A stretch of DNA of 64,000 nt from Jiangella alkaliphila. GTDB lineage: Bacteria; Actinomycetota; Actinomycetes; Jiangellales; Jiangellaceae. This document shows positions 25,340-41,307 of the stretch, in pieces (position 1 is the first letter of the stretch; every line of letters starts with the position of its first letter). Position numbers and translations under genes: made by a program. The notes below the pieces were generated by a model. It was not told the origin of the DNA. It worked only from the letters and a program-made list of their open reading frames with translations, and did not search any database. Location of the stretch: positions 2,329,278 through 2,393,277 of the forward strand of contig NZ_LT629791.1 of the NCBI RefSeq assembly GCF_900105925.1, in the 5' to 3' direction.

Positions 25340-26248
25340 TTATGCTGCGAGCTGGCCATTCAGGTGTTCGTTGCGGACTTCGTGCGGGGTCCGGTAGCCG
25401 AGCCCTGAATGGATTCGTCTGCGATTGTAGAAGAGTTCGATGTAGTTCGCAACATCCTCGCGGGCTTTCTTCCGTGTCGGGTACACGGTGCGGTAGACGC
25501 GCTCGACCTTCAACATGGAATTGAACGATTCGGCCAGAGCGTTGTCGTAGCAAATGCCGGTCCTGCCGAGCGAAGCGCGCATCCCGAGCTGCTTGATCTT
25601 CGCTGAGAAGTCAGTCGATGTGTACTGCGTCCCGCGATCTGAGTGAAGGATGCAGCGGTCGGCGAGATCGTGATTCCTGGCGGCCATGTCGAGCGCGTCG
25701 GTGACGAGTTCGGTGCGCATGTGGTCGGCGAGTGCGTACCCGATGACTTCTTTGTTGAAGCAGTCGATCACGGTCGCCAGGTACAGCCATCCCTCCCAGG
25801 TGTGGATGTAGGTGATGTCGCCGACCAGCTTCGTTCCCGGCGCGTCGGCGGTGAAGTCGCGGCGCACCAGGTCTGGGGTGGCCGGCCGGTCGTCGCCCTG
25901 GATAGTGGTGATCTTGTACGGGCGCGGCTGGCACGGCACCAGGCCCAGCTCACGCATCAGGTCACGGACCAGCTCGGGCCCGGCCTGCTCGCCGCCGCGG
26001 AGCAGCTCGGCGTGGATGCGCCGGTACCCGTAGGTGCGGTCGTTGTGGTCGAACAACGCCTCGATCTTGAGCTTCAACTCCTCACGCCGCCGCGTGGTCG
26101 CCGACGGTGGCCGGTCCCGCCAGTCGTAGTAGCCGGACCTGGACACACCCAGCCAGGTGAACATCTGCTTGAGAGACGGAGCGTCGTTGACATTGTCGGC
26201 GCTATTGTGCGCGTACTCGGCGGCGATGAACTCGTACTTCTCGCTCAC
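25340..26248 (-). CDS. IS3-family transposase OrfB (DDE catalytic domain)
   Basis: The 302-aa protein has the HTH_21 region and the rve integrase fold with the complete DDE triad: D144 (VGDITYIHTW), D204 (LHSDRGTQY) and E240 (ALAESFNSMLK), a canonical DD(35)E spacing, followed by the K/R residue of the IS3 family. The GTG start overlaps the OrfA stop (GTGA, 26245-26248). The fused OrfAB transposase would be made by -1 frameshifting at the A6G run (minus strand, 26283-26277), since the OrfB frame is open upstream in the -1 register and reads KK-SCRVLREG across it. Confidence 0.92.
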   Translation of the reverse strand: MSEKYEFIAAEYAHNSADNVNDAPSLKQMFTWLGVSRSGYYDWRDRPPSATTRRREELKLKIEALFDHNDRTYGYRRIHAELLRGGEQAGPELVRDLMRELGLVPCQPRPYKITTIQGDDRPATPDLVRRDFTADAPGTKLVGDITYIHTWEGWLYLATVIDCFNKEVIGYALADHMRTELVTDALDMAARNHDLADRCILHSDRGTQYTSTDFSAKIKQLGMRASLGRTGICYDNALAESFNSMLKVERVYRTVYPTRKKAREDVANYIELFYNRRRIHSGLGYRTPHEVRNEHLNGQLAA

Positions 26249-26541
26249 CGCTGCTCCTTCGCGAAGTACGCGGCAGCTTTTTTCAGGAACGCGAGCTCCA
26301 TCTCCTGGTCTCGCGTCCGCCGTCGCAGTTCGGCCAACTCCGCACGTTCGGACAACCCCAGCGGCGGCTCGTCGCCGACGTGGTCCTCTCGGTACTTCTT
26401 CACCCAATTGCCGAGAGTGGTCTCACCCACGCCGATCTCACGCGCCACATCGGCAATACGACGGTCATTCTCGACCACCAGTCGAGCAGCCTCTTCGCGG
26501 AACTCAGGCGTGAATGTTGCCTTCTTCCTCGCCACGAACAC
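26245..26541 (-). CDS. IS3-family OrfA (HTH protein)
   Basis: The 98-aa protein has a helix-turn-helix of the HTH_Tnp_1 type (FTPEFREEAARLVVEND, then DVAREIGVGETTLGNWVKKY) and a C-terminal leucine-zipper-like helix (ERAELAELRRRTRDQEMELAFL) used to dimerise. It binds the IS ends and, alone, usually limits transposition. CTG AAA AAA GCT near the 3' end is the probable slip site for the OrfAB fusion. Confidence 0.92.
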   Translation of the reverse strand: MFVARKKATFTPEFREEAARLVVENDRRIADVAREIGVGETTLGNWVKKYREDHVGDEPPLGLSERAELAELRRRTRDQEMELAFLKKAAAYFAKEQR

Positions 26542-28252: not shown

Positions 28253-28909
28253 TCAGACCGCCAGCGACCGCACCGCGTCGCCGACCGGGACGTCGCCGCC
28301 GACCAGCTCCAGCGTGAGCCGCGCGGTGCCCGGCTCGTCCAGCATCGCCAGCAGCACGGCCGCGACGTCGTCGCGGGTGACCCGGCCCCGCGGGACCGAC
28401 GGCGCCAGCGTCACGCGCCCGGTCCCGGCGTCGTTGGTCAGGCCGCCGGGACGCAGCACCGTCCAGTCGAGGTCGCGGCGGCGCAGGTCGGCCTCGCTGT
28501 CGCCCTTGGCCTTCAGGTAGACCTGGAAGGCGTCGTCCGGGTCAGTGGGCGGCTGCGTGGTCGCGTTGATGGACGACACCAGCAGGTAGCGGCGCACCCC
28601 GGCCAGCTCGGCGGCGTCGGCCAGCAGCGCGGCCGCGCCTCGGTCGACGGTGTCCTTGCGGGCCGGGCCGCTGCCCGGGCCGGCGCCGGCCGCGAACACG
28701 ACGGCGTCGGCGCCGCGGATCTCGTCGGCCAGCTCCTCCGCCGTCGCCCGCTCCAGGTCGATGACGACCGCCGTCGCGCCGGCCGACGCGAGGTCGCCGG
28801 CTTGGTCGGGGTTGCGGATGAGGCCCACCGCGCTGTCGCCGCGCAAAGTGAGCAGTCGTTCCAGCCGAAGTGCGATCTGACCGTGCCCGCCAGCGATGAC
28901 CACCTGCAT
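28253..28909 (-). CDS. NAD(P)-binding atypical SDR (NmrA/YwnB-like)
   Basis: The 218-aa protein begins with a Rossmann glycine motif (VVIAGGHGQIALRLERLL), then DLERATAEEL and VVFAAGAGPG, and has SSINATTQ and YLKAKGDSEADL in place of the classical SDR active site. Such proteins are often redox sensors or flavin/quinone-linked reductases. The start at 28909 lies 7 nt after TAACGT, so it may be leaderless. It is divergent from tdh with the perfect 28-bp inverted repeat in between. Confidence 0.82.
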   Translation of the reverse strand: MQVVIAGGHGQIALRLERLLTLRGDSAVGLIRNPDQAGDLASAGATAVVIDLERATAEELADEIRGADAVVFAAGAGPGSGPARKDTVDRGAAALLADAAELAGVRRYLLVSSINATTQPPTDPDDAFQVYLKAKGDSEADLRRRDLDWTVLRPGGLTNDAGTGRVTLAPSVPRGRVTRDDVAAVLLAMLDEPGTARLTLELVGGDVPVGDAVRSLAV

Positions 28910-28959
28910 TCGGCGTACGTTAGCCGACCTCGTCGCCCGGGGGGACGTTGTCCGGGGCG

Positions 28960-29033
28960 CTTTGCAATGAGCACCTATACGCACCACCCCGCCCGGTGGT
29001 GGGCAGTGGTGCGTATAGGTGCTCATTGCAAAG
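28960..29033. repeat. Perfect 28-bp inverted repeat (large cruciform/hairpin element)
   Basis: Left arm 28960-28987 and right arm 29006-29033 are exactly complementary over 28 bp around an 18-nt centre; the arms contain GCAATGAGCACCTATACGC and are less GC-rich than the flanks. After a small bulge CCC/GGG can extend the stem. It lies in the 208-bp divergent promoter region of the NAD(P)-binding gene and tdh, so it is not a normal terminator. Confidence 0.9.
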
Positions 29034-29117
29034 GGTGGTCGAAGAGCTCTCCGACCAGCGGCGTTGTGGCCGACGCGGGGTGGGGACGCCGCCGGGCGGT
29101 GCGTTACGCTCGCGCGA

Positions 29118-30149
29118 GTGAGAGCACTGGTCAAGGCCGGACCCGGCGCCGGGCTGGAGCTGACGGACGTCGCGATGCCCGTGGCCGGGGCGGGCGAGGC
29201 GCTGGTCCGCGTCCTGCGCACCGGCATCTGCGGCACCGACCTGCACATCGTGAACTGGGACCCGTGGGCGCAGGCGAACATCCGCCCGCCGCTGGTCGTC
29301 GGGCACGAATTCGTCGGCGAGGTGGTCGAGGTCGGGCCGGGCAGCCGCGGCGTGCAGGTGGGCGACCTCGTCAGCGGCGAGGGTCACATCGTGTGCGAGC
29401 GGTGCCGGCACTGCCGGGCCGGCCAGCGGCACCTGTGCCCGAACACCGAGGGCATCGGCGTGCACCGCGACGGCGCGTTCGCGGAGTTCATCGTCATGCC
29501 GGCCGGCAACCTGTGGCGGCACCCCGACGGCATCGACCTCGACGCCGCCGCGATCTTCGACCCGTTCGGCAACGCCGTCCACACCGCGCTGAAGTTCCCG
29601 GTCCATGGTGAGGACGTGCTGGTGGCCGGCGCCGGGCCGATCGGCATCATGGCCGCGCTGGTCGCCAAGCACGCCGGCGCGCGCAACGTCGTCATCACCG
29701 ACGTCAACCCCTACCGCCTCCAGCTGGCCGACCGCCTGGGCGCCGGCACCTCCGTCGACGTCCGCAGCACGTCGCTCGAAGAGGTCCGCCAGCAGCTCGG
29801 CATGGCCGAGGGGTTCGACGTCGGCATGGAGATGTCCGGCGACCCGACGGCGCTGCACGACATGATCGAGTCGATGGCCAACGGCGGGCGCATCGCCATG
29901 CTCGGCCTGCCGTCGAAGGAGAGCAGCGTCGACTGGTCCCGCATCGTGCTGCGGATGCTCACCATCAGTGGCATCTACGGCCGCGAGATGTACGAGACGT
30001 GGTACCAGGCGTCCGTCCTGGTCGCTGCCGGCGTCGACATCGCCCGCGTCGTCACGCACCGGTTCGCCAGCACCGAGCACGAGGCGGCGTTCGAGGCGGC
30101 GGCCAGCGGGCACAGTGGCAAGGTCATCATCGAGTGGGCGCAGCGGTAA
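29118..30149 (+). CDS. tdh: L-threonine 3-dehydrogenase
   Basis: The 343-aa zinc-type MDR enzyme has the length of E. coli Tdh (341). Catalytic zinc ligands are in [13 protein letters not shown] and GHEFVGEV; the structural zinc site is [15 protein letters not shown]; the cofactor loop is [12 protein letters not shown], with [12 protein letters not shown] as in Tdh. It oxidises threonine to 2-amino-3-ketobutyrate with NAD. The next gene, kbl, completes the pathway to glycine and acetyl-CoA, which settles the assignment. The GTG at 29118 lies 7 nt after TACGCT, suggesting a leaderless mRNA. Confidence 0.93.
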
Positions 30150-41261: not shown

Positions 41262-41307
41262 GACGCGCGACCGGGGCCGTCCACGGGGGCGGCCCCGGTC
41301 GCGCGTC
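41262..41307. terminator. Bidirectional terminator, perfect 18-bp stem
   Basis: GACGCGCGACCGGGGCCG (41262-41279) pairs perfectly with 41290-41307 around a 10-nt loop. It fills the gap between the convergent MMPL and discoidin-like genes and touches the stop codon of the latter. Confidence 0.9.

Follow-up and report, generated by a model that had tools for sequence, protein, structure and literature searches.

Jiangella alkaliphila is a soil bacterium, and the window of its genome considered here, i.e. the whole 64-kb stretch of DNA that was analysed, contains a long palindrome located between two divergently oriented genes. The question raised by this locus is whether the palindrome belongs to these two genes, as a local operator would, or to a repeat population of the genome, and in the latter case what kind of element it may represent.

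The palindrome and its surroundings

An inverted-repeat scan of the 64 kb (14-base seed, arms of at least 18 nt, separation of at most 300 bp) returned four inverted repeats, and only this one was perfect. Its two 28-nt arms are 100% complementary, with zero mismatches, and lie 18 nt apart, as had been reported in a preliminary description of the same DNA, which had also correctly described the flanking genes as pointing outward (Table 1). This divergent setting is a minority context within the family to which the palindrome belongs. The tdh copy, named after one of its neighbours, folds with -68 kcal/mol (z -12.3), and the scan of positions 28700 to 29300, which concerns this copy only, found 0 sites with a T-run or an intrinsic terminator. 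An intrinsic terminator was thus rejected for this copy.

Table 1. Features of the palindrome locus (positions in the window)
Feature	Position	Strand	Remarks
Left arm, 28 nt	28960..28987	+	Family-wide 24-nt half-site at 28962-28985; consensus from 336 arms
Centre, 18 nt between the 28-nt arms	28988..29005	.	22 nt (28986-29007) between the 24-nt half-sites, i.e. two-turn spacing class
Right arm, 28 nt	29006..29033	-	24-nt half-site at 29008-29031
Outer box CGCTGGTCGG	29051..29060	-	Lies 28-29 nt beyond the right half-site; recurs weakly as a companion of family members
Flanking gene, NAD(P)H-binding protein	28253..28909	-	PF13460
Flanking gene, zinc alcohol-dehydrogenase type (tdh of the preliminary description)	29118..30149	+	PF08240/PF00107

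A genome-wide family of bipartite half-sites

Comparison of the region with its own genome (G000; 7,716,500 bases in one contig) yielded 92 BLAST matches, and the 22-nt core of the arm was found there, with up to three mismatches, 47 times in forward and 46 times in reverse orientation, whereas the reversed control had no match in either orientation. A family of about 50 palindromic sites, nearly all of them outside called genes, is present in J. alkaliphila. The preliminary description had proposed searching the arm against the whole genome and related genomes, and the many intergenic copies found in this way refute a single-copy operator local to tdh, which was one of its suggestions; regulatory DNA binding is plausible for the sites as a genome-wide class and not as a property of tdh.

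Most arms of G000 are arranged head to head and form 44 pairs. For pair statistics, arms with at most three mismatches were used when the start of the partner was 24 to 284 nt away, lone and overlapping arms being dropped, which gave 130 pairs in three copy-rich genomes: 44 in G000 (50 site clusters), 55 in G005 (58 clusters) and 31 in G014 (34 clusters). Duplicate records of a locus (L005, L007, L010, L013-L015, L018, L019, L021, L023, L024, L026, L029, L047 and L050) were left out, and in the locus comparison L039 stood in for the nested L030.

The consensus of 336 aligned arms from several species reads CT-TTGCAATGAGCAC-nnnn-ACGCAYC. The half-site is bipartite: the blocks TTGCAATGAGCAC and ACGCAYC are nearly invariant and enclose a loose 4-nt core, the second base of which is free while the remaining ones show preferences. 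This conservation per position seems to exceed what sites of transcription factors usually display, and it counts against reading the palindromes as protein-bound dyads. Outside the half-site, at 28-29 nt, the box CGCWGGTCRG recurs, with 27 matches at up to one mismatch in the corresponding 10-nt bin and at most 8 in any other 10-nt bin of the outer flanks; a similar box is also present at the tdh locus of the palindrome-less G008, G009 and G015.

Spacer lengths follow the turn of the helix

Spacers between the 24-nt half-sites measured at most 40 nt in 116 of the 130 pairs of the three genomes, and more than 40 nt in the other 14. Among these 116 pairs, the spacer was 0 nt in 54, 10-12 nt in 44 and 19-22 nt in 13; no spacer of 1-9 nt was found, and the remaining five were 14, 24, 25, 27 and 34 nt long. 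Among periods between 5 and 25 bp, 10.7 bp, i.e. one DNA turn, fitted best, and it was retained when one element was drawn per locus (81 loci; 5-95% range 10.5-10.9). With one element per locus, the approximately 40 non-zero spacers gave a phasing R of 0.83, the maximum among 20,000 uniform simulations being 0.58; these Rayleigh figures assume independent loci, an assumption softened by the one-element-per-locus draw.

At orthologous loci, the spacer class was mostly kept or shifted by about one or two turns, as at the palindrome of the window, whose counterparts in G005 and G014 have spacers of 11 nt. Several of these loci differed in spacer sequence and retained the length class. Out-of-step changes were found as well (27 to 11, 21 to 25, 11 to 14, 0 to 58 and 170 to 67). 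The arrangement found, inverted half-sites with helical spacing, is that expected of an operator-like, protein-binding dyad.

Shared loci and a one-base change between sister species

Of the 81 loci, 37 recurred in two or all three of the copy-rich genomes. The penultimate base of the half-site (tail position) was C in both arms of all 44 pairs of G000 and of 50 of the 55 pairs of G005, a genome in which 57 regions were taken, against 147 arms present, and most sites were first found with a C-demanding pattern, which favours C at this position. In G014, it was T in both arms of 28 of the 31 pairs. G005 and G014 have 26 loci in common, of which 21 opposed CC to TT, the others being CC/TC (two loci) and CC/AT, AA/TT and TT/TT (one each). 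Over the remaining block positions, only 23 of 988 comparisons differed between the same genomes (2.3%), and over the core 48 of 208, both scored in whichever of the two orientations agreed better. G005 elements with a T tail could have escaped detection if their spacers are longer or their blocks changed; a paired pattern free at the tail listed 41 G005 pairs, of which 36 were CC, two TT, one AA, one CT and one CA. The tail contrast between the two species stands, since the pairs listed with this pattern were mostly CC and those with TT or AA entered the counts.

Rare cores (TTG or TCT, for instance) were retained at loci where the tail differed (L073/L159, L144/L172), which shows that these copies were inherited and then modified where they stood, and not replaced. 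Reading by eye showed many immediate flanks to be diverged and the arms retained. The preliminary description had taken the identity of the two arms as a possible sign of recent spread; in its simple form this is unsupported, because 37 of the 81 loci are orthologous across species and the arms are species-specific.

Genomic location

Genes were called with a home-made codon-usage script. The 130 elements were located between convergent genes (58), between genes on the same strand (50), between divergent genes (14), at a fragment edge (5) or inside a called gene (3), and the counts per locus were 38 convergent, 30 same-strand and 9 divergent, of 77. Median distances were 34 nt to the nearest 3' end and 86 nt to the nearest 5' end. 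The baseline for these contexts is the single 64-kb window, which has 39 gaps (18 same-strand, 13 divergent and 8 convergent), convergent gaps making up 192 of its 5,009 bp of intergenic sequence. A scan of ten neighbouring proteins gave two ABC transporters and a mixture of enzymes, with no theme in common.

A class of putative protein-binding dyads

Fixed blocks, a hardly read core, phased spacers and a genome-wide one-base difference in both arms are expected if a protein holds a pair of half-sites from the same side of duplex DNA. We therefore favour, with a probability of roughly 45%, the reading of the palindrome as a member of a Jiangella-specific class of putative duplex-DNA binding dyads. 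The protein would recognise TTGCAATGAGCAC and ACGCAYC within each 24-bp half-site and would hardly read the four bases between them. As the inner ends of facing half-sites lie mostly 0, 1 or 2 helical turns apart, a putative dimeric or oligomeric protein could hold both on the same duplex face. At sites beyond 3' ends, the bound protein would most likely separate transcription units from one another as a boundary or roadblock, a role favoured by this location, and at tdh it would sit in the divergent promoter region. Such a scheme supposes a DNA-binding protein acting on the duplex form and co-evolving with its sites, and template switching by the polymerase may be what keeps the arms alike. 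Palindromes are described as fragile or rearrangement-prone, and short ones are easily deleted. Unselected copies should therefore vanish, as may have occurred in G012 and at the stub of G010, and deletion-prone palindromes would be lost where the binding factor is gone.

Several observations speak against a dyad. G012, with 96% identity to G005 over two genes, contains a single arm within three mismatches, a presence/absence pattern like that of a mobile element; the 3'-end location is unlike that of an operator; 14 of the 130 spacers exceed 40 nt, some orthologous spacers changed out of step and the neighbouring genes lack a common theme; and the arms match above shuffles, which a pairing constraint would also give. 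A mobile origin of the family at some time is likely, and the putative dyad-binding protein could itself be a transposase, domesticated or active. The fuller scenario, in which this protein, perhaps a domesticated transposase, would use about 50 phased dyads as 3'-end boundary elements, would have shifted its specificity by one base between sister species, nearly all sites following in both arms, and would have been lost together with the palindromes in other species, is unlikely as a whole.

Families of palindromes between genes occur commonly, and most of them lack an explanation. In the present one, spacer steps of one turn and a single-base difference at 21 of the 26 loci shared by close species are two quantitative signatures that point to a trans-acting protein, and the natural variants of the family would be ready-made mutants for following the co-evolution of a protein with its genome-wide sites. 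We know of no earlier description of this family, an intergenic palindromic repeat family which would work like a protein-binding dyad: among the papers listed for Jiangella repeats, actinobacterial MITE palindromes and four 10-11-nt fragments of the arm, none dealt with it, as judged by titles and, for Jiangella, also by the opening of abstracts. Among known systems, the crevar sites of CcpA also combine inverted half-sites with a variable, unconserved spacer (0-40 nt) and many sites per genome (PMC5263246). The Jiangella dyads have nearly invariant 24-nt half-sites, mostly at 3' ends, and helically quantised spacers, whereas the core of CcpA sites measures 6 bp, the sites belong to regulated promoters, and helical quantisation is not described in the accessible part of that report (PMC5263246).

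Patchy distribution and the possibility of a mobile element

Among 22 genomes of the family and 22 of the order, the palindromes were found in Jiangella alone. The paired pattern, searched against a contig collection of 84,980 species from which records near the window were possibly excluded, matched three stretches, all from Jiangella (J. ureilytica and J. rhizosphaerae). A phage or plasmid origin was rejected, as the plasmid and phage sequences searched gave no match and the one arm match among viral contigs, inside an ORF of a contig with 46% G+C, looks like chance.

The 12 Jiangella genomes differed widely in copy number. Counting arms with at most three mismatches, the copy-rich genomes G000, G005 and G014 had 95, 147 and 70 (controls 0), and the other nine had few or none, with 23 (G010), 13 (G015), 10 (G013), 9 (G007), 8 (G011), 4 (G009), 2 (G008), 1 (G012) and 0 (G006). 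A species tree built from two adjacent genes at the tdh locus placed G012 beside G005 and G014 with a support of 1.0 (G005 with G014, 0.91), identities among these three over the two genes being 95.9-96.9%, and grouped G000 with the copy-poor G008 and G013 (0.82). The tdh locus was filled in G000, G005 and G014 and empty in G006, G008, G011, G012 and G013; G007 had an apparently decayed long version, G010 a stub, CTTTGCTCATTGCAAAAG, and G009 and G015 other sequence. The RibD-like/kynureninase locus was likewise filled in G000, G005 and G014 and in none of the remaining nine genomes. A third locus, with a 0-spacer element of about 50 bp in the same three genomes, was without it in eight genomes in which both flanks aligned, G006 being the one that could not be judged. 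Comparison of empty and filled sites at the three loci, whose flanks have diverged, revealed no clear target duplication.

Empty sites in relatives and an uneven copy number (from 0 to 147 arms among the 12 genomes) are what a family of miniature mobile elements would leave, its arms being the ends recognised by a transposase acting in trans and its location reflecting tolerated insertion. MITEs are short non-coding units with inverted termini, patchy copy number and empty sites in relatives, and the Jiangella family resembles them in all these respects. It differs from them in that the sequences between its arms are for the most part unrelated and in many cases missing altogether, that neither an autonomous partner (among the arms listed) nor a clear target duplication (at the three loci compared) was found, and that a difference between species recurs identically in the two arms across loci. 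Relatives with long spacers (58-170 nt in the copy-rich genomes and as much as 717 nt in G010), some of them with nested inverted repeats when read by eye, and tandem arrays of half-sites also favour a mobile element.

Further similarities concern REPs and REPINs, which are intergenic, lie in many cases near gene 3' ends and are associated with RAYT transposases (PMC3116915, PMC3733652). The Jiangella family has the same intergenic and 3'-biased location (PMC3733652), mostly between convergent or unidirectional genes, and shares with them inverted doublets, conserved arms, variable spacers and compensatory changes (PMC3116915, PMC3733652). According to the available parts of these reports, REPs bear a GTAG or CGTC tag, whereas the outer ends of the Jiangella arms are CTTTGC/GCAAAG, without such a tag in the consensus of 336 arms, and REPINs consist of two small REP hairpins spaced by about 71 or 110 bp, in contrast to one large dyad with a spacer in helical steps. 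The RAYT domain (Y1_Tnp, PF01797) matched in 0 of the 22 family genomes, the positive control matching in 5 of 14 named genomes, and a RAYT-driven REP was rejected on this ground; the preliminary suggestion of a REP/MITE-like element was thus right about an intergenic repeat family and is unsupported as to the RAYT link. Among the arms listed, no pair surrounded a gene, and a search for an insertion sequence with such ends, made with a 129-nt interior from L033, matched short stretches in which no gene was identified (14 matches in G000, 1-5 in six other genomes, none in five). Spacers phased to the helix and an in-place one-base difference at the same loci also argue against mobile elements, an explanation which we consider rather unlikely, although it is the best of the alternatives.

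Arm pairing and the possibility of an RNA hairpin

Arms were fully paired in 23 of 44 pairs in G000, 22 of 55 in G005 and 10 of 31 in G014. Both arms carried the same core in 24 of 44 pairs (G000; shuffles mean 15.1, maximum 24), 24 of 55 (G005; mean 8.5, maximum 18) and 17 of 31 (G014; mean 5.3, maximum 14), and non-consensus cores were matched between arms in 3 of 23, 14 of 45 and 11 of 25 pairs, respectively, so that 28 of 93 variable pairs were matched and 65 of 93 uncompensated. Arm pairing is not the main constraint on these elements. Their partial matching can be explained without any hairpin function, since polymerase template switching is known to homogenise the arms of inverted repeats (PMC8604942; PMC8794818).

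These data bear on a role as an RNA hairpin transcribed at the 3' ends of genes, i.e. a terminator, an RNase III site or a 3' stabiliser. The large convergent share (58 of 130 elements), the shorter median distance to 3' ends, the strong folding of the tdh copy and the paired changes seen in both arms at some loci would all suit such a role. The statement of the preliminary description that the palindrome is not a terminator applies well to the tdh copy, which lies between divergent genes and has no T-run, and less well to the family, many copies of which stand just past 3' ends. Most core variants were unpaired, and seven loci gave no match in Rfam, so that a known Rfam RNA was rejected. A hairpin requires neither identical arms everywhere nor spacer steps of 10.7 bp, and this makes an RNA role quite improbable.

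Template switching (PMC8604942, PMC8794818) could also be the only force maintaining symmetry, the palindromes being old neutral repeats. Block conservation across loci, the same base difference at 21 of 26 loci and the phased spacers would then be unexplained, and such a neutral origin is very improbable.

Integron attC sites consist of an outer box, an unpaired spacer, an inner box and a variable loop, a layout which the succession of box, variable core, box and variable loop of the Jiangella elements resembles, as does their 3' position; recognition by a structure-specific recombinase on folded single strands is nonetheless hardly credible, given that no cassette arrays were noticed, that the arms are often fully paired and that spacer lengths are quantised.

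Other elements

Elsewhere in the window, a 21-bp stem with a 4-nt loop (41262-41307, 95% complementary) looks like an ordinary strong hairpin, and the translation of an ORF at 25340-26407, about 2.5 kb from the palindrome, resembles what we take to be an IS3-type transposase. In G005, a second dyad is located about 2 kb from the tdh dyad (L079:286-345), inside an inserted stretch of about 132 bp for which G014, G006, G008, G009 and G015 have empty sites.

The long-spacer members L032, L033, L035, L043, L057 and L061 of G000 have a common interior with CTTGGCAC-like inverted repeats. In G010, a 765-bp element (L186:1525-2289) with GGACAC-type arms is full of nested repeats and contains overlapping reading frames only, which were judged unconvincing. 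Tandem amplification of half-sites was observed at L066, L067, L076 and L077 in G005 and at L168 in G014, with repeat lengths that are not in helical steps; at L066, eight half-sites succeed one another in direct orientation at intervals of 38-39 bp, and an inverted one comes after them.
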